Positions 2,096 to 60,082 of a stretch of DNA of 64,000 bases are shown here, one piece after another. Origin of the DNA: Blepharisma japonicum (Eukaryota; Ciliophora; Heterotrichea; Heterotrichida; Blepharismidae); the NCBI GenBank assembly GCA_949751835.1, contig CATKHK010000030.1, positions 372,001 to 436,000 of the forward strand, in the 5' to 3' direction. The notes beneath the pieces were generated by a model. It had not been told where the DNA came from and searched no databases. It worked only from the letters and a program-made list of their open reading frames with translations. Numbering within the stretch: position 1 is the stretch's first letter; the number at the start of each line of letters is the position of its first letter. Made by a program: the position numbers and the translations under genes.

Positions 2096-2665
2096 ATGGA
2101 CTACAACGAGAATGAATGTTTTGACGATCTAGACATGGACACTGAAGGCAGATTTTGCGATTCTCCAATGGGAAGCCCTTCATTTCCAGATCTCCTCTGC
2201 GAAACAGATCCACTATTCGGTTTAAACCTCCCTTCTGATACTCTAAAATTGGACATGGAAGATGTTCCTATTTTTGAACCCGAGTCAGGACAAAGCGACA
2301 AAGCAAGCACAGCTGTATCAGAAGGTACTCCTGAGAATTGTGAAAAGACACACACTAAGTCATCAAGCCAGGAATTTGTATCTGAAGAAAAAGAAATGCC
2401 AATTTCACCAATTAAAAGAATTGGAAGTCTTACTCTTGAAGAAAGACATATGAAAGTCCAAAAGTACTTGGACAAACGCCAGAAGAGAACTTGAAGTAAA
2501 CGAATTAACTATGACTGCAGAAAAAGGGTAGCTGATAAAAGAATCAGAGTTAAAGGAAGGTTTGTTACGAAAGAGCAAGCCAATTTGTTATTAGAAGAGC
2601 AAAAGCAAGGAAGCAGCCAAATGGAAATTGAAAATAGTCAGCCTTATCAGGCAACACCTAATTAA
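2096..2665 (+). CDS. CCT-domain protein
   Basis: A 189-residue protein, ATG to TAA. The N-terminal two thirds is acidic and Ser/Pro-rich. Residues about 117-160 match the CCT motif of plant CONSTANS-like and TIFY proteins: Arg-Thr-Trp-Ser-Lys-Arg-Ile-Asn-Tyr, then RKRVADKRIRVKGRFV. The Trp of the motif (residue 133) is encoded by TGA, which is direct evidence that TGA is sense here. In plants the CCT motif binds DNA together with NF-Y-type partners and carries a nuclear signal, so a nuclear regulatory role is likely. Target genes are unknown. No intron was found. Confidence 0.8.
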
Positions 2666-2820: not shown

Positions 2821-4170
2821 CTATATAAATTTTACATTTATAAAGCCAATAAATAGACCTCTATAAATCTTTTGTTGCCTTGTTAACTGTGCTTCAGGCA
2901 ATAAATGGCTTCCTTTCTGCATAGAATATTCTGCAGTCTTTTTTAACAGCAAACCTATTTCTGTATAAAATGTTTCTCTTAACTTTTCAAGAGGAAGCTC
3001 CCTAAGTTCGAATTACCTTATTTCGCTAATAATAGTGATACAGTTATTATATAAAACGCTGATACTTCCATATTCAAGCAATGGATTTTCTTTTTGCGCA
3101 GTCGATTCCCACATAAACAATTTTACCATAGTCTCAAAATGAGTTAATGCTTTTTGGCACATTTCTAGAAACCTTATTTGTGTTGATGATATTATAACAT
3201 TTTTTATTTCCTTAGATATATTCGCACCAAGTGACAAAAATATGTCTCTATTAATTTCTAGTCACAAAGAAGATATTTCTCTTATGTCCGATATAAGATC
3301 TAATTGGCTGAAATTTCGGGATAAATCTTCAACTGACGCCGAGATCAAATCAAAGCAAAACCTTTTAAATAGCAAATCATGGTCTTTAAAATTAATATAA
3401 AAAATTTCAGTAAAAGAAGGAAGAAAATCTTTGATAGTATTTAAGTAAAATAATATGTAAAGTTTTGGAGTGTTTTGTTTAGATAATTTTTTTGCGAGAT
3501 ATTTCTTTTTGTAGCTGATATATGATTCACAAAGCTGAGTTTCATCCAAATTTTTTAAATGCTTTAGGATGAGCAAATAATTAAAGGTCTTGTCTTTATC
3601 TAAGGTTTCTCTAAGCTGGTCAATAACGTCGTCTTCAATTCTTTGTTTAAGTTCTAAGATTGTATTTCAGAGACCTGCAAATATGCCACATTTATATTTA
3701 TCTTTCAGATTTTCTACGAATTTTAATAGCTCTAAAGCTTCGTTATAATGATGTGCATTTATCAGCGTTTTTAGCAGATTAGGGACGTCAAGGATTTCAC
3801 TAATGATTCCTTGTTGGCTTGAAACCATTCTTAGCTTTTTCTGCTCTTGAAGATTTTCTTCAAGTTTTTGCCAATTGTTTTGAAGTGATTTTTCCAATTC
3901 TGTGGTTTGCTCCAAAGCTGAATTTAAGAATGAGGAAATTGTATTTTCAAGCATTTGTATTTCTTTGCCGTCTCCTAAGGCCTCAATGAATTCTTTGCTT
4001 TCAGTCAATGCTTGCTGCTTCATTTGTTTATTCAGTGTCTGCAGCTCAAGTAAATTTGACTCTTGCTCTTTCACAAGCCTCGGAATCGGATAAGAAAGTA
4101 ATGTGTTGAAGTATTTAAGCGTTGAGTGATCTATAGTCGACTTTTGTAAAAAATACGTAGTAAGAGACAT
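2821..4170 (-). CDS. COG8: Conserved oligomeric Golgi complex subunit 8 (Dor1-like)
   Basis: About 444 residues after removing one 15-nt intron at 3002-3016 (GTAATTCGAACTTAG). TGA codons at 3667-3669 and 3262-3264 are read as Trp. The N-terminal half is helical and contains the Dor1-type stretch 'EILDVPNLLKTLI...YNEALELLKFVENL', typical of COG8. The family subunit belongs to lobe B of the COG tether, which captures retrograde vesicles at the Golgi. The protein is shorter than animal COG8 (about 600 aa). The intron is required because frame continuity to the TAG at 2821 otherwise fails at a TAA inside it. Confidence 0.8.
3002..3016 (-). other. 15-nt intron (COG8 gene)
   Basis: Read on the minus strand: GTAATTCGAACTTAG. 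It contains an in-frame TAA, and removing it restores the frame to a TAG stop 60 codons on. A at position 10 as in all other 15-nt introns here. Confidence 0.85.
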
Positions 4171-5819: not shown

Positions 5820-5979
5820 CCTTAAAATTGTGCTTTCTGTAATGGATAATTCTAAAAGCACTAAAATAGCTTTAAATTAAATTAAATTTGTTTAGCTATC
5901 AAGCCTACATAATATTCTGATATTGGTATGGCTTAATTATTTACTGCTTTTTATAGTTTATATTATTAATATATAGTGT

Positions 5980-6633
5980 TTAGCTAATTCTTTCCATTAT
6001 TTTCATTATTTTTATCTCAGAATTCAGGCTTTTTCTCAAATTCTCAATTCTTTGAGTTTTGCCATCTGTTTCTAATTTTATTTTTTCAGCTGAAGGCATT
6101 TGAATTGATATTTGAGAATATTTATAAAGAAGTTTCATTCAAGAATACCATTTATAAAGGGCTGCTGAGCATATCTTTAATTGCATTTCATTTCCTTCAA
6201 ATTCTTCTATGATTGGTTTTATAAGTTCCAAAGCTTCAGGGCTTACTTCAAGACTTTGCAAATCATTCCATAAGCTCCTTCGTTGCGCTACTATTCTATA
6301 TTGCTCTCAGGATGGTTTTTTGCAGCCAAGAAGGATTGGAATGCCTGTCATAACTGTTTCCATAATTTTAGGCGGCTTTTGGTAGGAATATATTTCAAAA
6401 TGATCATATTTAGTAATAGAAAGCAATGCTTCGTTTGCAGATCTCAGTATTGGTAAATATGTTGAAGATATATTATTATTCAATATTCCTAGGTCATACA
6501 AATAAGATAATTCTGCTTCATAAATTTGTATTTTATGAGAGAGGTTATTTATATTTTGCTTTAAGTTTTCATGGAATGGAGCAATTTTTCCTTTAGTTTC
6601 AATAATATTGATTATACTTGAATAAGGGTTCAT
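5980..6633 (-). CDS. Stand-alone protein resembling a dynein heavy-chain stalk/microtubule-binding domain
   Basis: A 217-residue protein, ATG to TAA, with TGA read as Trp at two sites. It starts with helical sequence and then shows KPPKIMETVMTGIPILLG, a Trp-containing segment, and an 'AALYKWYSWMKLLYKYSQIS' segment. In axonemal dynein heavy chains the equivalent order is KxPP...VMxAVxxLLG...W, then SxAAxxLCxWVxAMxxYxxV. There that region forms the microtubule-binding head and the return helix of the stalk. Here it is the entire protein, with no AAA module on either side. Short charged helices flank the head and could be the two arms of the coiled coil. Likely microtubule-related; the match is from pattern reading only. 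Confidence 0.6.
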
Positions 6634-6834: not shown

Positions 6835-7878
6835 CTATTGTTCTGGCATCCCATCGTTGACATAGCTAAATCCTTGATAAGTTGGGCTTGCAGCACCTAG
6901 CCTTGTATCTTTCCCCATAGAATCAACTGCTGGCATTCTCTTGAACTCTTCTTCAAAATTGCCTAATCCATGATCTCTATTAACACTTGGCACAAACGGT
7001 GGCCTAATCTCTTTTCTCAGCAGTGCTCCCCAGTTAATTCCTGCAAAAAATGGATGTGCCTTAATAGGCTCACTATCATTTGCACCACCCCCTAATCTTT
7101 GTGCTGGATCTTTCACAAAGAGTCTCAGCAATAAATCTTTTGCATTATTCGACATATATCCAGGAAAATTAATCTCTTCATGTAAAATGCTATTAAAAAG
7201 TTTTTCTCTATCTCTTGTGTAAAATGGTGGCAATCCAGTAAGCATTTCGAAAATTAAAGCTCCTAAGCTCCACCAGTCCACTGCTTTTCCATGGCCTTGC
7301 TTAGCTAGAATTTCAGGGGCAAGGTACTCAGGGGTCCCACAAAAAGACTGGGCTCCTGAGTTATCGATGATATTTTCTTTTGACAGACCAAAGTCTGTTA
7401 TTTTTGCATAACCTTCAGCATCGATTAAGATATTTTCTGGCTTAAGGCTAAATAAGGGTTACTCTCGGTAAACTATGTTTAAGGAATGAAGATGCTCGAT
7501 TGCTGAAACCATACAAGCTGCGTAGAACACTGCTCTGGGCTCATCAAAACGTTGTGCTCGGGATAAATGAAAGAAGAGTTCTCCTCCTGGGCAATATTCT
7601 AATACAAAATAAAGCTTCTTTGGGTTTTGAAATGCATATTTGAGCTTTACGATATAAGGGTGGTTTACTCTTTCTAAGACATTTCTCTCTGTTCGTGTGT
7701 GCTCGACTTGGTTTCTGCGGGCTATATAATCTTTGCGTAACATCTTCATAGCCAGCATTTCTCCAGTGTTGTTTTTTCTGACAAGAAGGACTTTTCCATA
7801 TGATCCTTTACCGATAACGCTAAGAAGTGTGAAGTCTTCAATTGAAACACTGTGATCAACCATATTTTTTAGTGGCAA
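6835..7878 (-). CDS. AGC-family Ser/Thr protein kinase (Akt/S6K-like, no PH domain)
   Basis: About 342 residues after removing a 15-nt intron at 7448-7462, which splits the catalytic-loop Asp codon of YRDLKPEN. The glycine loop is GKGSYG; the Lys in AMKML, the HRD-equivalent YRD, DFG, and the activation loop SFCGTPEYLAPE follow in order. Ser before FCGT is the expected PDK1 site. The C-terminal tail ends in an AGC hydrophobic motif (YQGFSYV). There is no N-terminal PH or other domain. The layout fits a kinase activated by tail phosphorylation. Substrates cannot be inferred. Confidence 0.9.
7448..7462 (-). other. 15-nt intron in the kinase catalytic loop
   Basis: GTAACCCTTATTTAG on the minus strand. 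Removing it turns the interrupted YRE-stop into YRDLKPEN, the invariant kinase catalytic loop. This makes it the best-supported intron in the window. Confidence 0.95.
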
Positions 7879-27038: not shown

Positions 27039-30000
27039 TTAAAGAATCCCAGGGAATTTCTTGCTTTTGATAATCGTTATCTTTTCATAAACCTGTTTCT
27101 TGAACTCATTTTGTTTGTCTTCCACTTTCTGCAGATGTGCATTCCCTTGCTTCACGATTTCTCCTATTCTCCTATTCATTCCGTCATAATTGTTTTGACT
27201 GTCTTTTATCACATTATCCAGCCTATTTTGGAGTAATAAAATATCTTTCAACAATATCTGGCCTTGTTTTTCCAGTGTAGTAGTTGATTTAGAGTCCGAG
27301 TCATCCTCACTACTTGTGCAAAGTTGTAAATGCATAGGAGTTCCTGAGTTCCTTCTCCAGAATAATATAGCTTCGTACTCTATAATCATCGCAACCATAG
27401 ACTGAATATCAGCGACCACCATATCTTCTTGCACTCTCCCATAAGTTTCTCCCATAATTGCAACCAGTAAATTAAACATCATAAGAGGGTTTACTATTGT
27501 AGCTACATAAAAACATAACCACTCAGCATCTGAATATGTGCCATAGTCAAAAGCTCCGAATAAAAGTAAATATGAATGGATCAGGGCTTCAGAAAACGTC
27601 TTATCCTCTGATAAGCCACTTAATACCTGGAACATCAAAGTAAAAGCTAACACAGAAAAGGCAAGCACAATGACAAAAGGAATCATATCATGCAAAATTT
27701 CTGTCAGCATTCTGACCATATAGCGAGTTTGCTTAAAAACTCTGAAAAATCCTATCCCTCTTTGGAAAGAAGCTAATAAAATTAATGCAAGAGTAGTTGT
27801 CGACAGTTCTCCACCGACAAAAGGCTCAATAAATGAATATGCAAAAATCAGTAAAATTCTTGCCATATCCAGCCAGTTCCAGAAATCTTGAAGATATTGT
27901 TTGATTCCGATAGTGATCTGGAAGCACTCATAAATAAATAATATAATGTTTAGCACTATAATAGAAACAAATAAAATTGTATCTTGGCCTGGGCTGGTTT
28001 GCATTAGTGAATAGTATCCTAATATGAATAAAAATAATATATAAAAAGCTGCATGGATAAGCATTAAAGGTCTGATTGTTTTCCATTTGGATTTTATAAT
28101 GGTAGATATGATAGGGGCTGTATAAACGTCTTGGTCTTCGCATGCTATTAGCGTTGTGAGGAATTTGATACCTTCTAAGTTTCCTAGAGTCATATTAAAT
28201 TTGAAGGAGCTCACTCTATAGATTAAAAACTGCTCGTTTTCTTTGGAATTAATAGTAGATTTGATGAAATTTTTGCAGTCAATATGGTAACTATTTGAAG
28301 AAAATGGATGGCCTTCTCTTGTTTTAAGCACCCCAAATTGGTCTAAATCTGGTTGTTTTGACCTTTGGAATGCTGCATTATAAAGGGTTGACAGATTTGG
28401 GGTTGCAAGCTCATTTAGCCTAGGAAGCTCAACTTCAATTCTTGTAAAAATATGCCAATCTACCTTGGTGTATTTTGCTATTTTTTTGATGACTAAGTCA
28501 ATAAGCTCTTTATTTTTGGAATCTAAAGCTAAAGTCAAAGGGGTAACTCCAGATGTGGTACTTAAAAACTTGCAGCGGCCTTTAAATGCTAAATTTGCAT
28601 ATTTAAGGTTGACTGTATATGCAAATAAATGGAGAATATTGATCCTCCATGGGAGGATTACCCACTCGTTGAGATGAGAAGGATAGTCGCCTTCGTACTC
28701 GTTTTCCATAAATAGCTTGAAATATGAAGTAAATAGCATGGAGTATATTGATGGGCCAAATATGAATAGATTATTTGCTTTCGCTTTAACTGGGTTTCTC
28801 ATTCTGATAATCTCATTTGTGCTCACTACATAAATTGTCCCGTTAATATTATCAAGCAAAATCTGCTTAGGTCGAAGATTCACTTTTATAGTCCCTATTA
28901 AGATTTTATCAGTTGTTGACCAAAATTGTATTTCATCCTTTTGAGTGCCTACCAATAAATACTCTCCATCTTCAGATATAGAGCATGATAAAAGCTTGGA
29001 AATCTTAGGAGCTGCTCTTCTCCCAAGTGCTCCTGCTCCTATTCAGCTGCCTTGCCTATCCTGTCTTTCTTGCCTTTCATGCATAAATTTATGTCTTCTT
29101 TCTTCGATTTCGTCATTTTCATCATCAGCTTTTAATTCTTCTTCCTTATCTTGTACACAATTAAAAGAAGTGATAAGAGTGTTGAAATTCAGGTTCCATA
29201 TATCAATCATGCCGTTTCCACCTACTGAAACTATATGATTTGTAAAATAATTGGGCTTAAGAGTGTAGATTTGCTGAGCAAACCCTTTTAATACAGCCTT
29301 TTCTGACTCTTGAATATTCACAGCTAAGACATGAAGCTCATTTTCTGTAGCATAAATAACTGTTGTGGAATCTGGAGAAAAACAAATAGATTTTACAGGT
29401 TGGGCGACAGATAGAGTTTTAATCGGATTATAAGTATTCAAATCATATATAGCAACTTCTCCTTTTTCATAATCACTTGCAGCAGATGCAAACTTTTGCC
29501 CGTCTTTACTAAAGTCTACAGAAACCACTGGCAATGTATGCTCTGACAATGACTGAATTTCTTTCTTTATTTTCATATCCCACAGTTTCACATTAGAAAA
29601 CTGAAACCCTACAGCCATCAAAGCTCCAGTAGCATTTATTGTCAAACACTTCGGACTGCCTTCAAATTTTCTCAAGTTTTCGCTTACTCCAGTATCTACC
29701 TCAGTTCGCTTGACTATAAGATCTTCTCCAATGGTAAAAATAGATTTTCCATCAGACGAAATAATGGCCGCATTTATCTCTTCATGTATAACAATTCCAT
29801 CTTTTCTTTGCAGTTCTTCAACAAGCCTTATCCTTCTAATAGTCTTATCACTTTCTCCAATAAATAAATATTTTCCATCAGGAGAACAAACAGCTGCTTT
29901 TGGAGGTGAAGGAAGCTTAAATTCAGTTTCATACTTGGCTTCTTGGGTGTTAAATAGATAAAGCTTGCCTTTGGCACTGCCTGTTATCAAATAGCGGGAG

Positions 30001-30803
30001 TTTTCTATATGGCACATTGCAGTTATTTGAGACTTGTGCTTGGGTAGAAGCGTCTTTTCGCCTGAAACAATGTTCCAGAGTCTAATAATTTTATCGTCTC
30101 CACCAGTCACTAGCACTCCTTTGTCAATGATATCCCCAATATTTGATTTTTCTGCATATGGACAGTAAATCATATAGTTAATTTTGGCTTCTTGAATGAT
30201 CTCCATATGCACTTCCAGTTCTTCGCTGTTCCATATAACGATTTTCATATCTGTTCCAGCTGTAATGAAAACGTTATCATCTTTAGCGAAACAAATTTCC
30301 CTTATATGCCCTTTGTGATGTCTTATATCTTTCTTAAATTTTCTTGTTTCAAGATTATATACGTAAATAATATCTTCTAACCCTCCAGCTATAATCAAAT
30401 TCCGCTGAATGCTTGCAGCAAGAGCTTTTATAGGTGCATTAGGACCCATCAATTGATCAATCTTTTCTTTTGCATCAAGATTTCACAATATAATTGACCT
30501 GTCCTCGCCAGCACTCGCAATTTTATCAATGCCAACATTGCATAAACAGTTAACTTTTCCTTTGTGGCCTTGGAAGGGGAAGTTTTCCATGCTTTCGGTC
30601 TGGTAAACTTGGATCAGGCCATCCGCAGTTCCAACCAATAAGAATTTGTTATCAGGTGTAAGTAATAAAGAAACGATGTCTAGGTTCAAGTTAAAAGTGT
30701 CTATACGCTTTTCAAATTCTCTGAGTACCTGTGTTAAGAAGTTATTCAACTGGCCAGTTGGGAAATTTTGAAGCTCAATATAACCAGCAGGATTTGGTTC
30801 CAT
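27039..30803 (-). CDS. WD40-repeat protein fused to a TRP-like ion channel
   Basis: One uninterrupted frame of 1254 residues; TGA at 30483-30485 and 29043-29045 is Trp (the first in RSIILWNL of a WD repeat). Residues 1 to about 590 hold many WD40 repeats (VIWNSE, RLWNIV, KLWDMK, DIWNLN). A middle region with weak ankyrin-like stretches (GVTPLTLALDS) follows. Residues about 900-1130 are six membrane spans of TRP type: WNWLDMARILLIF in span 3, a pore loop with LLFGAFDYG, and span 6 with NLLVAIMGETYG. A C-terminal cytosolic tail has coiled coil. Ciliates are rich in such channels; a sensory or calcium-entry role is likely. The start ATG is 30803. Confidence 0.85.
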
Positions 30804-30942: not shown

Positions 30943-31015
30943 CTCCGAGACCGGGAATTGAACCCGGGTCCCCTGCGTGACAGGCAGGGATACTTGACCA
31001 CTATACTATCTCGGA
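30943..31015 (-). tRNA. tRNA-Asp (GTC)
   Basis: A 73-nt cloverleaf on the minus strand. Acceptor TCCGAGA pairs with TCTCGGA plus a G discriminator. The anticodon stem CCTGC/GCAGG encloses loop CTGTCAC with anticodon GTC. The T arm is GGTTCAATT flanked by CCGGG/CCCGG. Internal promoter boxes A and B are present. No intron; CCA is not encoded, as usual for nuclear tRNA genes. Confidence 0.97.
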
Positions 31016-31341: not shown

Positions 31342-32067
31342 TTATAGAGGCCTACACCCAATCTCCAGTTTATTTTTCGAAAGGCAGCAAGTCCAATATC
31401 TTCCTTGCGCGCTCCATTTCCCAGGATGGTAATTGACCTTCCTCAATTCAAGCTCTTGCAGCAGCCCTTCTTCTTCTTTTTCATATTTTTCCTTATCTGC
31501 GAGCTCCTTATCAAGCCTTTCAATCTCTTCTCTTATCTTTCTCGTTCTGTCCTTAATAACTTCTGATTGGCTTTCCATCAAAAACACTTTAAAAGCTTGC
31601 AAAATTTCGTCTTCACTGCTCTGAGAGTCCAAGATTTTATTAAAATTGCACACTTTTTTGCATAATTCCGAGCAAACCATAGGTGACAAACAATATCTTT
31701 CAAGTTTAAGCAGCTTTTTACGGCAGATAGGGCTTGAGCATATGAAAACTTCATAATCACATGTTTTTTCGTGCTCCAAAACATCATGAATTGGCCCTTC
31801 CAATGAGCAGCCATTGGCGGAATTTATGCATTTCAGAGTAAGTTTCTTATAATACTGTAGAGCATATTTTGAAGTTATGCGGGGCTTTATTTGGTTATTG
31901 CATTGCGGGCACAAGTCAAGCTTCGATATACAGTTTGTGCAAGCTAAGTTTTCACATATAGAGCATTCTAAAGGGTCGACTGATACATGCTTGCAGCTCA
32001 TACAAATGAAATAGTCATCAACTTTACAGGTGAAGCGATCAATTGTGATTATTGATGTCTCGCTCAT
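31342..32067 (-). CDS. RING / TRAF-type zinc-finger protein
   Basis: 241 residues. Near the N terminus, a RING-like finger runs CMSCKHVSVDPLECSICENLACTNCISKLDLCPQC. A TRAF-type zinc segment follows (LKCIN...GCSLEGPIHDVLEHEKTCDYEVFIC). A charged coiled coil (residues about 165-205) and a Cys-containing tail end the protein. The order RING, zinc fingers, coiled coil is that of TRAF-like E3 ligases, without a MATH domain. Divergent from the RCC1-kinase gene with only 47 nt between the start codons. Confidence 0.85.
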   Translation of the reverse strand: MSETSIITIDRFTCKVDDYFICMSCKHVSVDPLECSICENLACTNCISKLDLCPQCNNQIKPRITSKYALQYYKKLTLKCINSANGCSLEGPIHDVLEHEKTCDYEVFICSSPICRKKLLKLERYCLSPMVCSELCKKVCNFNKILDSQSSEDEILQAFKVFLMESQSEVIKDRTRKIREEIERLDKELADKEKYEKEEEGLLQELELRKVNYHPGKWSAQGRYWTCCLSKNKLEIGCRPL

Positions 32068-32114
32068 TTAATTTAATTTGCCAATGATATCAAACGAGAA
32101 ATTTCATAAAGAAA

Positions 32115-34259
32115 ATGGAGCATAAAGACAATTATGTTTGCTCAGCTTTTGGATATGGAAAATATGGACAGCTAGGAGCGATTTCTATAACTCCAAGTCA
32201 AGTTCCAAACATAATCAACGTTGAAGAGCCTATTTTTTCAGTTTCAGCTGGAGAAGGCCATACTGCAGTGCTTACAGAAAACTTCCATTTGTTTACATTT
32301 GGCCGAAATGCTTTTGGGCAGCTTGGTCTTGGGCATAATTTGCCAATTTATATGCCTACTTTGCTACAATCATTGAGTTCTAAACAAATTGAAGCTGTTT
32401 TTTGTGGAGCTGAGCACACTTTGGCGATAACTGCTGATGGCGAAGTGTACACATGAGGGTTGAATATAAAAGGACAATTAGGGCTTGGGGACAATTTGAA
32501 TAGAAATTCTCCTACCTTGGTAGAAAATGTTTCTAGTAGGCTGGTGCCCAATCAGAGCTGCAGTTTGGAAAGAGGGGAAAGGGCGATTTCTGCAGCTTGC
32601 GGAGCTTTGCATACACTGATTTTGACTGATAGGAATAAAGTATTGTCGTGTGGGCATGGGAGTAATTTTGCATTGGGACATAACACACAAGAAGATGTAA
32701 ATCGATTTAGACAAATCAGACATTTAGAAGGGATGGGAAAAGTTGACAAACTAGAAGCAGGATTAACCACTTCAGCAGCAATTATCCAAGGAAATTTATA
32801 TCTCTGAGGAAAGCTAAGTTCCCAGACATATCAAGTCCCTTCACAAATTTGTTTTGAAGTTACCTCACCCTCGATAAGCAGAGCCAAATCAAATTCTCCC
32901 AGAAGTGGAAATGTCGAAGATGTTGCCCTTGGAGATAATTTCGTATTTTGCATTGTCAAAGGAAATTTATGAGGCTGAGGAGAAGGTTCTGGGCTTAGAA
33001 AACAAGAGCCTACTCGCTTAGAAATAAACAAAGCTGTCAAATATATAAGCTGCGGCTTAAAGCACACAGTTGGCATCACAAATGATTATAACATTTTTGT
33101 ATGAGGAAACGGAGATTTCGCCCAATGTGGAGAAGTTGGCAGCTCAAATACTCCAACTTATTTGCCAAGCTATACAAGTGCATTGGCATCCAAAATCGCT
33201 TGTGGGAGCTACCATACTGTCGTTCTATCTGAAAGGCCGCCATCTATTGTAAATCAGCACCAATCAAGATCGAATCTTGAAGCTGAATGCTCGCAGCATC
33301 TTGCTGAAATTCAAAGGCTTAAAAAAGAGCTTGAAGAGTATAAGAAGCAGGCAGATACTGAAGTAATAAGGAGGACTCCACAGAAAAATGCGTATTTAGA
33401 AAAAGATTTGGTGAAAATTGCATCAAATAATAAACATGTGACTCCTTATTTTGAAGTAAGCTATGAGGAGTTGCAGATTGATCCTGAACCGATAGGCAGA
33501 GGGGGATACGGGACTGTTTATAAAGGGAAATGGAGGGGAAGTACAGTAGCGATAAAAAAGATGAAAATGGAGGCTGGGCATGATCGATACAAAGAATTCA
33601 TTCAAGAGTGCCAAACAATGGTCTCAGTGAGGCATCCAAATATCGTTCTTTTTATGGGAGCCTGCACAATATCTCCCAATTTGTGTATTATTTTAGAATA
33701 TTGTGGATACGGCTCATTATGAGACGTCTTAAGAAATCACAGCGAGCCTTTGCCATGGTATCTGCGTTGCAAAATTGCTTTGGACACTGCCAAAGGAGTA
33801 AACTACCTTCACAATTTCCCTACTCCTATTTTGCATAGGGATTTAAAATCTTTAAACATCCTATTAGATGATGCACAAAACGCCAAAATCGCTGATTTTG
33901 GCTGGACAAGGTTTAAAGCAGATGCTATGACAAATAGAATTGGGACATATCAATGAATGGCTCCAGAGGTAATTTTAGGACAAGAATATTCAGAAAAGGC
34001 TGATGTGTATAGCTTTGGGATTATTCTATGAGAATTAGCTACAAGAAAGCCACCATTTAGAGAGCTTAATGGAATTCAGGTTTCCCAAGAAGTTGTAAGA
34101 AGTGATCTAAGGCCGCCTGTTCCTAAAAGATGTCCTGAGGCTTTTGTGTCATTGATGACTAGATGCTGGGAAAAGCAGCCAAATCTGAGGCCAAGTTTTG
34201 ATGTAATTATAGAAGAATTGGAAGCATTTTTGAAATTTTTGGAAAGGTCATCAGTCTAA
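32115..34259 (+). CDS. RCC1-repeat protein kinase (TKL/RAF-like)
   Basis: 714 residues in one frame, several TGA codons read as Trp. Residues 1 to about 370 hold about six RCC1 repeats (FGRNAFGQLGLGHN, WGLNIKGQLGLGD, WGNGDFAQCGEVG). A short coiled coil (about 385-415) joins a kinase domain at about 455-710. The kinase has GRGGYGTVYKG, Lys in VAIKKMK, HRDLKSLN and IADFGWTRF, then WMAPEVI. HRDLKSxN and the WMAPE form place it in the TKL group near RAF/MLK kinases. The order is the reverse of animal NEK8/9. Presumably autoregulated through the propeller. Confidence 0.9.
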
Positions 34260-47339: not shown

Positions 47340-48470
47340 CTACTTATCTTTAATATCTTTCAATTTTTTAAAATGTTTGCGCTTCAAATCAAATTGATAA
47401 AATCCCAGCTTTGCCTTATAAGCCAGGCTTATAAAAATTGATCCATTATTAAATTTTTTGAATGAAAACATAGAAAATTGGTAATTAAATATTCCAATCT
47501 TTTTTCATAAATAATCATTATCTATTTCACTCTCATAAATGAAATTAGAATTCTCAAAAATATACAATCTTGACTCTGCTGAAAAAATTCCTTTATATGC
47601 TTTTAAATCAAGATCTTCTAAGTAAAAATCTGAATGACTTTCAATATTTAAATCATATTTAAATATACTTGATACATCTTTCCCGCTAATAATTATAGTA
47701 TTTTTAAAAATTTCCAAAGAGCAATGAGTAATAGTTTCCGAAGTTGAAGCTACTTTAAATCACTTATTTTGCAATAAATCAAACTTAAATGCAATGGGTA
47801 TGTTATTAATATAATTAGTTCCCCCAAACATATAGATACAATTTTCATGATAAATGCATGATGAATTCCAAAAGTATGGCGAAGGAGGTAAATTTCTTTT
47901 AACAGTAAGAGATTTCAAATCTATTATACAGCAAATTCCATCATGAGCTCTGCCATTGTAACAACAGAAAAGCTCAAGATTTGGAAGCTGAGCTAAGCTT
48001 GAATGGCTGGTTCACTTTTTATTAGGACCAATTGCAACTTCTTTTGATTTTTTAGTCTCAGTGTCATAAATACATATTTTCGAGGTATTTTCCTCAAATA
48101 TTTTTTCAAATCCATATAAATATTTGGAGTCAAAAATAAAATTATTTTTTAAATCACAAATTCTTTGTATAATTGCGCCAATTTTTGCAGTGATCTTATT
48201 GCATAATGCATTGATTTCATTATTTATTTCACACAAAAATATTATATCATTGCTGAATTTTTTATAATTCTTTAGCTTTTCTAGCTCTTCTTCGATAGAA
48301 AGTATTTTATGACTAAATTCTTCTAGCCTAGAACAGTTTCACTTTAAGGATGTATAGTCCAATAATAAATCTTGGAATTTTATTTTTTCTATTTTGATTT
48401 CTATAAGTTGTTGTTTTAAATTTTCAATTACTTTATCGGAATTTTCTAAATCTGATCTTCTTCGTTTCAT
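47340..48470 (-). CDS. Coiled-coil/kelch-like protein, family member 1
   Basis: 376 residues, ATG to TAG, intact, with TGA as Trp at four sites. N-terminal about 120 residues: charged coiled coil (EEELEKLKNYKKF). The rest: kelch-like beta-propeller repeats, e.g. ENCIYMFGGTNYINNI then FDLLQNKWF, and IFENSNFIYESEIDN. Similar to the genes at 50125-51240 and to fragments at 48.8 and 49.7 kb, so this is a local family. Function unknown; kelch propellers usually bind proteins. Confidence 0.75.
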
Positions 48471-48769
48471 TATATTTTTCAATGGATTATTAAATAATTT
48501 TTAAGATTACTGAAATTAAGTTTTAAGAATTTTAGAGGTTACTTTTTCTAATATATTCAGTTTAAAAGCAATTTCTATATAAAGCTTGAAATCATTTTAG
48601 TGCAGTATCATTTTTAGGGCATTATCTAGCAGTAATTGAATTAGGATAGAACTAGATAGACTAATTTCATTAGAGCTGATATTATTTTTAAAATCTTTTG
48701 AATAATATTTAACGTTGAGCTATCTTGAATCTGAATCTATAAAGATTATTTAAAGCTAATTTTTTATTT
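48471..48769. other. AT-rich spacer
   Basis: About 300 nt between the intact kelch gene and a decayed copy; no frame. Confidence 0.4.
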
Positions 48770-50124: not shown

Positions 50125-51240
50125 TTAATATTTAATAACTTTTAATTTATTAAATGATTTCGATTTCAAGTCAAACTTATAAAATTGATGTCCCAATCTA
50201 TAAGACATTATTAAAAAAATTGAATCACCATTGAACTTTTTAAAAGGACTTTCATAAAAACTATAATCACATTTTCCAATTCTCTGCCAGACATATTCAT
50301 TATCAATTTCACTCTCATAAATAAATTGTTTCGTCTCAAAAATATATAATCTAGAGCCTAATGAAAATATTCCTTTATTGTCTCATGACCATGATCAACT
50401 ATCTGAGTTTATTCTTGAATAACTTTCAATTTCTAAATCGTATTTATAGATTGAGTTAAAATTGCCAACGAATAATATAGACTTTTTAAAAATTTCTAAG
50501 CAAGTTGATGCATTTATATGGGAAAATGAAGACAATGGAAATCATTTATTTTGCAGGAAATTAAATTTAAATGAAAAATTTTGACGATAATCTGCCGCAA
50601 ACAAATAAATACAATTTTCATAATAGGCACAGGCAGGAAAAGTATGATTTGAGATAGAAGGTAAAAATCTTTTAATTGATAGAGATTTTAGATCAATTAT
50701 GCAACAAATTCCAGATTTATCTTCACGATTTTCATAATAAAAGAATAACTCAGAGTTAGGAAGCTGGCAAAAGCATGACCCAGAATAAGCTTTAATATCT
50801 AAATTTAATGCAACTCTATTCCACTTTTTTAATTTAGTGTCATAAAATCCAAGATATTTCTTCTTATGTTTATTTTTGATATTAACATAATATATAAATC
50901 TTGAATCAAAATCATACTGATCCTTAAATTCGCAAAATTTATTGGCAACTTCAGCAAGTTTTGCTGATAAGTTGGCACACTGTAATTTAGTATCACTATT
51001 TATTTCACATAAATATTTTAATTCATTGTCAAACGATTTTAATTTTTCAAGGTCTTCTTCAAGTAAAAGTATTTTAGTATTAAATTCTTCTAATTTATAG
51101 CAACTAATGAATCTTGAAGAGTATTCTGATAATAAATTTTGATATTTTTCTTTAATTTCTAAGAGTTTTGCAAGCTTTTCATTTATGTCTTTAATTGCAA
51201 TGCATGAATTCTCAAAATCTGATCTTTTCCTTTTAATCAT
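50125..51240 (-). CDS. Coiled-coil/kelch-like protein, family member 2
   Basis: 371 residues, ATG to TAA, intact with TGA as Trp at several sites. N-terminal coiled coil (ISCYKLEEFNTKILLLEEDL) leads to kelch-like repeats (SGICCIIDLKSL, YYENCIYLFAADYRQN, FETKQFIYESEIDNEYVW). About 220 codons of its 5' part recur almost unchanged at 55294-55951, where the 3' part is missing. It is therefore the complete version of the truncated frame there. Confidence 0.75.
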
Positions 51241-51646
51241 TATATTTTTATTAATAGCAGCTTTCGTTAAACGCGTAAAAAAAATTAAACATACGAAATG
51301 AAAAATATAATTAATTATAAATTTAAACCGTTCTAAGCTTAAATAATTGTGGAATTGCGCCGAAACATTGAAATCAATATATCTTCTTCAACACAAGTGT
51401 TTCTATTTTCACTGAATTTTCACTCCAGCTATTGAAGCAAATAATTCCGTTTTGACTCACGTTGCAGTAAGTATGGTACTTGTATCGTCCGAGATGATCG
51501 ATGACCAAAAATAAATGAAGTCCTCATCAGACTATGTCTTCTTGATTCTTAGAAGCTTAAATTAAATAAATTCTGGCATACTGAAATTTACTTTTTGATA
51601 CTCATCCACACATAATATAACGAATTAATGAAAACTATTTATATGC
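51241..51646. other. Spacer between kelch gene 2 and WD40 gene 1
   Basis: 406 nt, non-coding in my reading, conserved in the right copy (55952 onward) except that the right copy carries about 1.2 kb more here. Confidence 0.5.
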
Positions 51647-54142
51647 CTATCTAATAATATTATCAAATTTTCATATTTTAATATTTTGTTCGTACCCGCC
51701 AACAGTAAAAAAATGCCCCATTTTCGAGATTTTAATATTTTCTATAATTTCTCTATTATCTTGAACAGCTATTGTTTTGATCACTTTTCCTGTATCATAA
51801 TCTCATTCTATTATTTTTCCATTGTCACTTCCAGCAATAATACTCTTACTGTCAGGCGACCACACTATTGAATACAGATCGTAATCATGTAAAATTTCTT
51901 TAACTTTCGTAATTCTTTTAATATCTCCTAAATATCAAATATTTATTTTTTTACATTCTCATTCACAGCATAATAAAAATTTTCCACATGGTGACTGTCT
52001 TATAAACTTGTAGCTATCATCTATTTTAGATCTAGCTAATTGTTTCTGACTTTTTACATCTCAAGTTCTAATATATTTATTATCTAAAGAAATGACAAAA
52101 TTTCCGAATTTGGATCAACAACAATTAGTGCTATCTTTCAACTTAGGTTTTAAAACAGAAATTATTTGATTACTATCAATATCTCATATTTCCACTCAAC
52201 TAAAATCTCCTAATGAGAGCATTTTTTTACCATCAGAAGAAAATTCAATCCTTTTGGGTATTGCATTTGTTTTGATTACCTTAAATAGAGATCCATCATA
52301 AATATTTCAAAATTTAATCATACTTTGGCAGCTTGTAGAGGCCAAAAAAGTATCATATATTGCTATCGAATAGTTGCAATTTGAGCAGCAAGCCATAAAT
52401 CTTTTTAAAATTTTTTGATTTTCAGTTAGAAATATTGATATCCATCCTTTGCAACTTAAAACAACAAACAATTGGCTATCAATTGAAAAAAAAAACTTTC
52501 ATATTTGTTCTCTTCAAAACGATTTCTTATTAACTTCTTCATTAAATTGAATCTTTCAATTTTGGGGGCTTCAAAAAGAATCATTGGCAAGTAAATATTT
52601 CCCTTTTGGATGAAAATCAAGGATATCTTTTCTAAAAAGTGGAGAATACTCTTTCCCTTTAGACAAATTAATAACTTTTTCTATCCAATCAGTCTCTATA
52701 GCAATATATCTCCCACAATGAGAAAACTTAATATAAAAATGATTTGTAAAAATAACTAGCGGTTCTAGCTTTTCAAAATCGTAAAGAGCTAAATCTTTTT
52801 TTCCAGTAGGAATAGCAATATATTTACGATTCAAAGATATACCCACTTTGCGATGATCTAATCCATCGAAATGAATTATTTCCGTTCTTCTAGACAAATT
52901 TCATATACTTAAATTGTTATCATTTCAAATTATCAAATTTTCTCCTGAAGGTGTAAAGCTTGCAAATCATAAATTTGGATCCAATCATCTAATTTCATTT
53001 ATTATTTTTTTGGTTTTTATGCTATAAATTTTCACAATTGTTTTTGTACCAGTAGATTGTCAAATTAAGCAAAGATAGTTATTGCAAGGTGAAAAACAGC
53101 AAAAAGTTCCAGTATTCGAAAATTTGCCAATTTGAAGCTTAGTAGAAGTATCTCACAATATTCTTTTCTCATAATCACTTGAAACTAAATATTTTCCATC
53201 ATCAGAAAACAATAAGAAGTTTATATCTGTATCACTCTTTATTAATTGAGTAATTTTCTCATAAGTTTTTGCATCATAAAGAAATATTTTTGATCCTTTA
53301 GCAATTGCAAGAAATCTCCCACAAGGAGAAAATTTAATAATTCGAGTTTTTATTCCAAAACCTAAATCTACTTTCCCAAAGTTAACATTAAGCATGCTAC
53401 AATTTCTAAAATCGGAGTTATAGATATGGGCTCTTGAGAAATTAACCCCATCAAGAAAGCTTGATTCAAAATTTGTATTAATAAATAAACCCCATGATAA
53501 ATCTGCATTCGGAATTTTTATATTGCTTAAATCTTTATTTTTAAATGAGAATCCAGATTTATTGAGAAGCGTAATTGAGTTACTTGCTGCAATGCTGATT
53601 GAGTCTGATATTTTTGATTCTAAAACGATATTATAAAGATTATCTTTTATTTCTTCTGTAAGAAGGTTTTCGATATAACTTCTTATTTTTCTATAATCAT
53701 TTAAATCAATTTTATTCAAATAACTCTCTTTTATGGAATCGAAAGAATTTGTGCTTGCCAAGGATTGGACAATTTTTTTAGCCAAAATTAAATTAACTTG
53801 TGCCTTACTAAAACATACTCGTTCATTCAGGCAAAACCATTTTATCAAGCTTATTTTTTCTTTTTCTTTATTTTGGTATAAAGAGTTAAATGCTGTTGCT
53901 TCTTCAAAGACATTGTCTAAATTTCTTTTAAATGCTTTATTAATTTCTATAATTTGCTTAAGTGTCATATCTCTTTTATGATATTTAATGCTAACCTGTA
54001 TTTTCCTGACTTGATCGATAAAAGAATTAATTTTGGCTTTTATTAGATTTCTTTTTTTGTTAAACCTGTTGTAAATTCTCATTTTATTTCCTTTTGCTTC
54101 AAAGTCACAACCGAGAAGTTCGATGCCTTTACTAGTGTGCAT
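51647..54142 (-). CDS. WD40 protein with pentapeptide-like repeats, copy 1
   Basis: 831 residues, one frame with about twenty TGA codons, most at the Trp of WD repeats (TGA GAT = Trp-Asp), ending in TAG. Residues 1-190 are helical and basic (FNKKRNLIKAKINSFIDQV). About 195-265 is pentapeptide-like (KDLSNIKIPNADLSWGLF, FLDGVNFSRAHIYNSDFRN). From 270 on are WD40 repeats (KFWNIYDG, EIWDIDS, RTWDVKS, IEWDYDTG, KIWKFD). 'AASNSITLLNKSGFSFKNKDLSNIKIPNADLSW' recalls the segment that follows the NTPase in protist NACHT-type WD40 proteins, but no P-loop is seen. Function unknown. Confidence 0.8.
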
Positions 54143-54779: not shown

Positions 54780-55285
54780 TTAAAACAAATAAGCAATTAT
54801 GTATCTATAAATATGCTTGATGGTAGATGTTTTCAAACTTGGCTAGTTGCATGGAATATGCAGATCTGAGGGACTAATTCTATTGCGCAGAGACATGGGC
54901 TTGAACATGCAGAAAAACAAACATCTAAAAACATAAAATCTTGGGAAAATCCCTATTTTTGCAAATTGTTTTTTTGATTCAAATCCATTTTCTAAAGTTG
55001 TTACAAAAGAAGCCACAAAAGATTTTATAAATATTTTTGATAATTTCATTTGTTTCTTTGTAGCTACATTTGCTATATTTCATCAAATCCTCTAATGTTG
55101 AATATCTGAAGCGTTTAATTTTAAAACGTTTTCCATAGCAGTATCAAGAATCTCTTCTCCATTATATTTTATCATTTTGTTGCACCTTGTTTCTGCCTTA
55201 TTTATTTATTTGCTTGATATATTTCCCAAATTCAGCTTTAAAATTCTTTGATAATTTCATTTGTGTTAGTAATTGCTTCAATCTT
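54780..55285 (-). pseudogene. 3' part of a B-box/coiled-coil family relic (left copy)
   Basis: Minus-strand pieces such as 'TLENGFESKKQFAKIG' and 'NEIIKEF' correspond to the right-hand relic at 60720-61310 and to the coiled coil of the gene at 63369. Several stops. The left copy lacks the 5' part because the duplication breakpoint falls inside it. Confidence 0.55.
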
Positions 55286-55951
55286 AAAATTTTGACGATA
55301 ATCTGCCGCAAACAAATAAATACAATTTTCATAATAGGCACAGGCAGGAAAAGTATGATTTGAGATAGAAGGTAAAAATCTTTTAATTGATAAAGATTTT
55401 AGATCAATTATGCAACAAATTCCAGATTTATCTTCACGATTTTCATAATAAAAGAATAACTCAGAGTTAGGAAGCTGGCAAAAGCATGATCCAGAATAAG
55501 TTTTAATGTCTAAATCTAATGCAACTCTATTCCACTTTTTTAATTTAGTGTCATAAAATCCAAGATATTTGTTCTTATGTTTATTTTTGATATTAACATA
55601 ATATATAAATCTTGAATCAAAATCATACTGATCCTTAAATTCGCAAATTTTATTGGTAATTTCTGCAAGTTTTGCTGATAAGCTTGCACACTGCAATTTA
55701 GCATCACTATTTATTTCACATAAATATTTTAATTCATTGTCAAACGATTTTAATTTTTCAAGGTCTTCTTCAAGTAAAAGTATTTTAGAATTAAATTCCT
55801 CTAATTTATAGCAACTAATGAATCTTGAAGAGTATTCTAATAATACATTTTGGTATTTTTCTTTAATTTCTAAGAGCTTTGTAAGCTTTTCATTTATGTC
55901 TTTAATTGCAATGCATGAATTTTCAAAATCTGATCTTTTCCTTCTAATCAT
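55238..55951 (-). CDS. Chimeric frame: kelch-gene 5' part joined to B-box relic
   Basis: 237 residues, ATG to TAA. Residues 1 to about 220 are nearly identical to the protein at 50125-51240, up to YLFAADYRQN. The last about 17 (FKIEAITNTNEIIKEF) come from the B-box family relic, as at 61081-61302. The join is at 55286-55293 and sits exactly at the tandem duplication junction. The protein would keep the coiled coil and only the first propeller repeats, so it is probably a non-functional by-product, unless the coiled coil alone has a role. Confidence 0.65.
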   Translation of the reverse strand: MIRRKRSDFENSCIAIKDINEKLTKLLEIKEKYQNVLLEYSSRFISCYKLEEFNSKILLLEEDLEKLKSFDNELKYLCEINSDAKLQCASLSAKLAEITNKICEFKDQYDFDSRFIYYVNIKNKHKNKYLGFYDTKLKKWNRVALDLDIKTYSGSCFCQLPNSELFFYYENREDKSGICCIIDLKSLSIKRFLPSISNHTFPACAYYENCIYLFAADYRQNFKIEAITNTNEIIKEF

Positions 55952-57592: not shown

Positions 57593-60082
57593 CTATCTAA
57601 TATTATTATCAAATTTTCATATTTTAATATTTTTGTCGTATTTGCCAATAGTAAAAAAATGCCCCATTTTTGAGATTTTAATATTTTTTATAATTTCTCT
57701 ATGCTCATAAGCAGTCATTGTTTTGATCGCTTTTCCTGTATCATAATCTCATTCTATTATTTTTCCATTGTTATTTCCAGCAATAATACTCTTACTGTCA
57801 GGCGACCACACTATTGAAAACAGAAAGTAATCATGTAAAATTTCTTTAACTTTCGTAATTCTTTTAATATCTCCTAAATATAAAATATTTATTTTCCATC
57901 TACGATGACAACAAAATAAAAATTTTCCACATGGTGACTGTCTTATAAAATCGTAGCTATTATCTATTTTAGATTTAGCTAATTGTTTCTGACTTTTTAC
58001 ATCTCAAGTTCTAATATATTTATTATCTAAAGAAATGACAAAATTTCCGAATTTGGATCAACACCAATTAGTGCTATCTTTCAACTTAGGTTTTAAAACA
58101 GAAATTATTTGATTGCTATCAATATCTCATATTTCCACACAACTCAAATCTCCTAATGAGAGAATTTTTTTACCATCAGAAGAAAATTCAATCCTTATGG
58201 GCATTACATTCGTTTTGATTACCTTAAATAGAGATCCATCATAAATATTTCAAAATTTAATCATACTTTGGCAGCTTGTAGAGGCTAAAACAGTATCATA
58301 TATTGCTATCGAATAGTTGCAATTTGAGCAGCAAGCCATAAATCTTTTTAAAATTTTTTGATTTTCAGTTAGAAATATTGATATCCATCTTTTGCAACTT
58401 AAAGCAACAAACAATTGGCTATCAAATGAAAAAGAAATCTTTATTATTTCTTCCCTTCAATACGATTTCTTATTAACTTCTTCATTAAATTGAATCTTTC
58501 AATTTTTGAGGCTAAAAAGAGTATTGTTGGCAAGTAAATATTTCCCTTTTGGATGAAAATCAAGGATATCTTTTCTAAAAAATGGAGAATACTCTTTCCC
58601 TTTAGACAAATTAATAACTTTTTCTATCCAATCAGTCTCTATAGCAATATATCTCCCACAATGAGAAAACTTAATATAAAAATGATTTGTAAAAATAACT
58701 AGCGGTTCTAGCTTTTCAAAATCGTAAAGAGCTAAATCTTTTTTTCCTGTAGGAATAGCTATATATTTACGATTAAAAGATATACCCACTTTGCGATGAT
58801 CTAATCCATCAAAATGAATTATTTCCGTTCTTCTAGGCAAATTTCATATACTTAAATTGTTATCATTTCAAATTATCAAATTTTCTCCTGAAGGTGTAAA
58901 GCTCGCAAATTGTAAATTTGGATCCAATCATCTAATTTCATTTATTATTTTTTTGGTTTTTATGCTATAAATTTTCACAATTGTTTTTGCACCAGTAGAT
59001 TTTCAAATTAAGCAAAGATAGTTATTGCAAGGTGAAAAACAGCAAAATGTTCCAGTATTCGAAAATTTGCCAATTTGAAGCTTAGTAGAAGTATCTCACA
59101 ATATTCTTTTCTCATAATCACTTGAAACTAAATATTTTCCATCATCAGAAAACAATAAGAAGTTTATAAATGTATCACTCTCTATTAATTGAGTAATTTC
59201 CTCATAAGTTTTTGCATCATAAAGAAATATTTTTGATTTTTTAGCAATTGCAAGAAATCTACCACAAGGAGAAAATTGCATAATTTGAGCTCATTCTCCT
59301 AAATCTAAATCTTTCCCAAAGTTAACATTAAGCATGCTACAATTTCTAAAATCGGAGTTATAGATATGAGCTCTTGAGAAATTAACCCCATCAAGAAAGC
59401 TTGATTCAAAATTTGTATTAATAAATAAACCCCATGATAAATCTGCATTCGGAATTTTTATATTGCTTAAATCTTTATTTTTAAATGAGAATCCAGATTT
59501 ATTGAGAAGCGTAATTGAGTTACTTGCTGCAATGCTGATTGAGTCTGATATTTTTGATTCTAAAACGATATTATAAAGATTATCTTTTATTTCTTCTGTA
59601 AGAAGGTTTTCGATATAACTTCTTATTTTTCTATAATCATTTAAATCAATTTTATTCAAATAACTCTCTTTTATGGAATCGAAAGAATTTGTGCTTGCCA
59701 AGGATTGGATAATTTTTTTAGCCAAAATTAAATTAACTTGTTCTTTGCTAAAACATACTCATTCATTCACGTAAAACCATTTTATCAAGCTTATTTTTTC
59801 TTTTTCTTTAATTTGGTATAAAGAGTTAAATGCTGCTGTTTCTTCAAAGACATTCTCTAAATTTCTTTTAAATGCTTTATTAATTTCTATAATTTGTTTA
59901 AGAGTCATATCTCTTTTATGATATTTAATGCTAACCTGCATTTTTCTGACTTGATCGATAAAAGAATTAATTTTGGCTTTTATTAGATTTCTTTTTTTGT
60001 TAAACCTGTTGTAAACTCTCATTTTATTTCCTTTTGCTTCAAAGTCACAACCGAAAAGTTCGATGCCTTTACTAGTGTGCAT
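57593..60082 (-). CDS. WD40 protein with pentapeptide-like repeats, copy 2
   Basis: 829 residues, ATG to TAG, one frame with TGA as Trp. Nearly the same protein as 51647-54142, with scattered substitutions and a small difference just after the pentapeptide region (DLDLGEWAQIMQFSPCG here versus VDLGFGIKTRIIKFSPCG). All domains are kept. Both copies remaining open over 2.4 kb suggests either recency or selection. Some TGA Trp codons are substituted (for example a Trp near RCCHRRW), so the copies are diverging at the protein level. Confidence 0.8.

Follow-up and report, generated by a model that had tools for sequence, protein, structure and literature searches.

Evidence for a natural family of motor-less dynein stalk heads in the ciliate Blepharisma japonicum

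The genome of Blepharisma japonicum contains a multigene family whose members resemble the tip of the dynein stalk; some copies lie in tandem clusters, and some are broken. One member lies in the 64,000-nucleotide stretch of DNA analysed here (contig CATKHK010000030.1, positions 372,001 to 436,000, hereafter the window), and the evidence supports the view that this locus is a complete stand-alone gene for a motor-less dynein stalk head. Judging from the sequences, we consider it fairly probable that the gene is complete, belongs to a family of motor-less stalk heads and encodes a protein that would bind microtubules independently of ATP. According to PMC6629372, the prevailing view is that the AAA ring controls how dynein grips microtubules through the registry of the stalk coiled coil. 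Stalk heads that occur in nature with no ring would reveal the registry that evolution picks when nothing drives it, and could also be ready-made tools for decorating microtubules. In searches of open-licence papers, including those on dynein in such ciliates, we found no natural stand-alone stalk head.

The window gene and its likeness to the dynein stalk tip

With TGA read as tryptophan, the minus strand of the window holds a frame of 217 aa from an ATG at position 6633 to a TAA at position 5980, whereas under the standard code the frame at the same position is 108 aa. In Blepharisma stoltei UGA is read as tryptophan and introns are predominantly of 15 and 16 bp, as stated in part of PMC9942806. 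Two of the four Trp codons of the window gene are TGA (W109 and W165). The frame is bounded by stops at both ends, and the 120 nt upstream contain three in-frame stops (one TAG and two TAA). The ATG start, clean TAA end and length of 217 residues that a sequence-only reading had given therefore hold, provided that TGA encodes Trp. An exon missed behind a tiny intron was ruled out, since no 15- or 16-nt GT..AG stretch was found on the gene strand between window positions 5900 and 6700. The gene and its parts are as follows.

5980..6633, minus strand: stand-alone gene encoding a dynein stalk head of 217 aa, from ATG to TAA (frame, PDB match, profile comparisons)
6460..6585, minus strand: distal CC1 arm, residues 17-58 (helix in a low-confidence model; five-protein profile matching DNAH2 CC1 from profile position 27)
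6100..6459, minus strand: MTBD core, residues 59-178, lacking the H2-H3 flap (alignment, PDB match, profile)
5986..6090, minus strand: distal CC2 arm, residues 182-216 (alignment, model, heptad test)
6307..6309, minus strand: in-frame TGA for W109, a Trp invariant in 8/8 aligned family proteins and found in many heavy chains
6139..6141, minus strand: in-frame TGA for W165, a Trp invariant in 8/8 aligned family proteins and in 21/21 heavy-chain stalks

Sequence comparison shows that the protein resembles the stalk tip more closely than chance would allow. A phmmer search of PDB chains matched residues 59-191 of the window protein to dynein heavy chain (E=8e-7), and the protein alone matched a profile of the 21 heavy-chain stalks of this genome with a probability of 97.9% (E=5.8e-13), against 4.8% (E=0.0084) for a control, an unrelated coiled-coil protein from the window. 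When the window protein was aligned with four related proteins encoded on contig C49 (S1-S4), the alignment matched DNAH2 over profile positions 27-214 (E=2.8e-18), and the resulting five-protein profile matched the 21-stalk profile with E=1.1e-22 and extends into both coiled-coil arms. Homology thus spans distal CC1, the MTBD and CC2 for the family profile, and the MTBD only for the window protein alone. Pfam hmmscan of the window protein alone returned no family at E<=10, so that it falls short of the PF12777 cut-off; four of the five window/C49 proteins did match PF12777 in hmmscan, with weak coiled-coil families listed as well, and all four C49 copies exceeded the 24-bit cut-off in a profile search of the genome. 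In PDB, the family profiles came closest to DNAH2 and DNAH6. The five-protein profile had 83 PDB matches, and in the top 60 of these the short chains were named dynein or fusion, except for the MKIAA0325 protein, which we take to be mouse dynein; these short chains were taken for laboratory constructs. No relatives were confirmed among the pattern matches in viral_contigs (198) and genome_contigs (173), which are viral and prokaryotic collections.

A single-sequence AlphaFold model of the window protein has a helix order that fits the six-helix MTBD, compatible with the fold that had been proposed, and its mean pLDDT of 42.2 is too low to settle that fold; the profile match to the heavy-chain stalks favours it. 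For S2, S3 and S4, heptad a/d enrichment (p<0.03) was found in CC1 and CC2 alike. S1 showed it in CC2 but not in CC1 (p 0.40), and the signal was borderline in the two arms of the window protein (p 0.05 and 0.07).

The heavy chains of this genome, of which 21 were found (domain counts for such large families being lower bounds), each have a stalk between an AAA_8 match before it and an AAA_9 match after it. All 21 are located on contigs other than C30, the window contig, and C49, and a genome-wide search for AAA_8 and AAA_9 gave no match on either of these two. The idea that the window gene is a piece of a heavy chain was rejected, as AAA_8, MT and AAA_9 matches lie adjacent in the 21 heavy chains on those other contigs; the same matches support the earlier claim that the gene is not a heavy-chain exon or fragment. 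The window protein has a stalk coiled coil and MTBD by homology, has no AAA_8 and AAA_9 flanking its stalk as in the AAA+ ring of a dynein motor, and its gene encodes no ATPase domain. Homology and the closed frame together bear out the proposal of a complete stalk head without an AAA ring. Outside the set of 21 we observed two weak AAA_8 matches (G000 C4:90333-91067 and C48:135772-136383) and two weak AAA_9 matches (G000 C114:64888-65475 and C16:541925-542134, the latter below the Pfam cut-off). One very divergent heavy-chain stalk, L030 (G000 C13:164651-165643), groups with the DNAH6-like heavy chain on C73 (95/86).

The gene family, its neighbourhood and its origin

Genome searches and frame lists identified nine intact stand-alone genes, with products of 217-244 aa. 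Besides the window gene, these are S1-S4 on C49 (L009), three genes on C45 (L036) and one on C99 (L039:6579-7313). The C45 group matched two profiles, that of the heavy chains (96.7%, E=3.6e-10) and that of the five proteins (95.9%, E=6e-9), and the C99 protein matched an eight-protein profile at 98.7% (E=3.2e-16). About nine further copies are broken or partial.

C49: three broken copies, L009 about 3348-3626, 6097-6204 and 7240-7450
C45: three broken or partial copies, L036 6792-7486 (two pieces), 162-446 and 473-601
C87: partial copy, pieces at the contig start
C99: broken copy in two pieces
C14: broken copy with two frame breaks

The C14 copy was counted as broken because no 15- or 16-nt intron explains its two frame breaks, and the copies that abut a contig end, on C45 and C87, could have been clipped there. 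L039:813-1655 was excluded from the intact count because its N-terminus differs; this 280-aa frame has a different, membrane-like N-terminus followed by a stalk-head-like C-terminal part. About 1.8 kb past the broken C14 copy, with two frames between, lies a gene that is beta-tubulin-like by eye (L037:7630-8964).

The neighbours of the window gene are unrelated to it, as had been claimed: a Dor1-family gene and a protein kinase gene adjoin it. Three features of this neighbourhood bear on the comparison with C49.

6835..7863, minus strand: gene for a protein kinase, of AGC type by eye, on the same strand as the stalk-head gene and some 200 bases upstream of it
7448..7462, minus strand: kinase intron of 15 nt, GTAACCCTTATTTAG
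2410..2617, plus strand: outer portion of the duplicated segment, a stretch shared with a CCT-motif gene at the C49 locus (70 residues with 60% aa identity)

The C49 cluster is also preceded by a kinase gene, with a DNA identity to the window kinase of 81.8% over 1036 aligned positions; over 291 codons in two exons the pair shows 89% aa identity, dS 1.45 and dN 0.066. Since a paralogous kinase precedes the stalk heads at both loci, the window and C49 loci are duplicated segments. Between S1 and S2 there is a kinase-tail relic, 91% identical to the C49 kinase, which indicates that the tandem unit formerly contained the kinase tail. That tail decayed while the adjacent S2 frame stayed open, although other stalk-head copies of the C49 cluster did decay.

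In the phylogenetic tree, the window protein and S1-S4 formed a group separate from this genome's heavy chains, with support of 100/99, or 95/88 with more rows. All nine intact proteins grouped with only 68/92, so that the tree does not establish one origin for all, and the branch of the window row is long. The best-scoring heavy chain was that on C73 for the window protein and that on C2 for S4. Like the stalk heads, the C73 stalk lacks the H2-H3 flap; its closest relatives are an unnamed 8glv chain and DNAH6.

Proposed microtubule binding and alternative explanations

A reading wider than the explanation given at the outset, and to which we give somewhat less than an even chance, is that the dynein stalk tip became a natural family of motor-less microtubule-associated proteins (MAPs) of fixed affinity, which tune or stabilise the arrays of the ciliate, and that a second branch changed its partner. 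In the main explanation, the protein would fold into a six-helix MTBD carried by an antiparallel coiled-coil hairpin about five heptads long. In dynein, the ring controls the registry shift of the two stalk helices, and H1 with CC1 moves most on binding (described in sections of PMC6629372). With no AAA ring there would be no driven shift of registry, which would be set by the sequence, and consequently affinity should be constant. Such a stalk head would bind the tubulin intradimer groove at one fixed affinity, without an ATP cycle, and as a MAP would occupy dynein sites. Roles as a cap, competitor or spacer, as earlier proposed, are conceivable. If the wider reading is true, the family is a tandem-expanded, dynein-derived counterpart in nature of the engineered MTBD constructs.

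Like the dynein heavy-chain stalk/MTBD (PF12777), these proteins have distal CC1, an MTBD with conserved Pro and Trp positions and distal CC2; unlike it, they are without proximal stalk, AAA ring and ATPase, and form a multigene family of 217-244 aa proteins. LC1 is a leucine-rich-repeat protein, unlike the stalk heads. It is, however, also a small non-motor protein at the contact of stalk tip and microtubule, as the light chain on the outer-arm alpha MTBD (from part of PMC8500839). Laboratory constructs (SRS-MTBD and the bare C. elegans DHC-1 MTBD) are likewise MTBDs without a motor and can bind microtubules, as described in portions of PMC6629372 and PMC4230729, but they are engineered, whereas the stalk heads are natural genes without a fused scaffold such as SRS locking the registry. 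The bare DHC-1 MTBD (residues 3207-3372) co-sedimented with microtubules (PMC4230729, in part), and scaffold-fused MTBDs decorate microtubules (PMC6629372, in part). Counting against binding, microtubules were poorly decorated by a stalk-SRS construct of 12 heptads that carried the DNAH7 MTBD, according to the same paper, PMC6629372. We regard the chances that the window protein is an ATP-independent microtubule binder as evenly balanced.

The tubulin-contact positions bear on this. They were numbered on the assumption that mouse residue numbers are the human ones minus 2. Part of PMC6125590 names five contact residues, namely K3298, K3299, K3336, R3342 and R3382. We scored K3298, K3299, R3342 and R3382, with the cytoplasmic-type dynein of this genome (L020), aligned to DYNC1H1, as a ruler; K3336 was omitted, as it could not be placed on the alignment. 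At the four positions the window protein has T, K, R and I, so that the equivalents of K3299 and R3342 are kept and those of K3298 and R3382 are absent. The R3382 equivalent is also lost in S3/S4 and that of K3299 in S1/S2, and K3298 is kept in none of the five. On average 1.80 of the four contacts are basic in the window/C49 five, compared with 1.33 in the 21 heavy chains, and 0-1 in the C45/C99 proteins. These counts suggest that the window/C49 branch could bind about like an ordinary heavy chain, while binding by the C45/C99 branch is doubtful; the latter has probably left tubulin for a different partner.

Loss of the basic contacts in the C45/C99 branch would also be expected if the stalk-head fold had been co-opted throughout the family for a non-microtubule partner (a light chain, an axonemal adaptor or an unrelated protein), with microtubule binding lost family-wide. 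This is the most serious rival, although we think it unlikely. It gains from the rapid evolution of the proteins beside a slow kinase, since dN between the window protein and the C49 stalk heads is 0.68-0.87, compared with 0.066 for the adjoining kinase pair, which is odd for a ligand of conserved tubulin. It gains also from the pI of S1-S4 (about 5.0-5.4), but a pI below 7 is also seen in 19 of the 21 heavy-chain stalks, the window protein has a pI of 8.65, and basic contacts in the window/C49 branch are on average at least as frequent as in heavy chains.

A further possibility, which we consider improbable, is that the genes are non-functional debris of partial dynein duplications, open by chance. 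It agrees with the presence of several broken copies within and near the clusters, and also with the dN/dS of the stalk heads, which greatly exceeds that of the adjoining kinase pair. Six C49 pairs gave dN/dS of 0.52-0.62; bootstrap intervals lay below 1 in four of them and reached 1.00 for S1/S3 and 1.11 for S3/S4, touching or exceeding 1 as debris would. Against this, intervals also excluded 1 in all three C45 pairs (dN/dS 0.49-0.62), and nine frames of 217-244 aa are intact. In a neutral simulation, all four C49 frames remained stop-free in 0 of 2000 runs, and S3 and S4 together in 21 of 2000, figures that somewhat overstate the case because the simulation allowed only substitutions, on branch lengths that were assumed, and because copies were chosen for it on the ground that they are intact. 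Pairs with the window gene have dS of 1.07-2.18, near saturation, and dN/dS of 0.32-0.81, with an interval up to 1.21 for the pair with S1; this high dS makes the case for selection weaker for the window copy. That the stalk would be supplied in trans to a stalk-less heavy chain is very improbable: the five-protein profile does cover parts of both coiled-coil arms, but AAA_8, MT and AAA_9 are adjacent in all 21 heavy chains found, none of which is stalk-less, the four weak AAA matches (two AAA_8, two AAA_9) lying outside that set.

Other genes in the window

Two very similar frames of 831 and 829 aa (51647-54142 and 57593-60082), WD-repeat-like by eye, are accompanied by related frames at 47340-48482 and 50125-51396 and a shortened one at 55238-55951; together they are probably a young tandem duplication. 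By eye, a 1254-aa frame (27039-30803) has WD-like repeats followed by an ion-channel-like multi-pass membrane region, and a 738-aa frame (32043-34259) combines RCC1-like repeats with a protein kinase domain. One tRNA lies between them on the minus strand (30943-31015).
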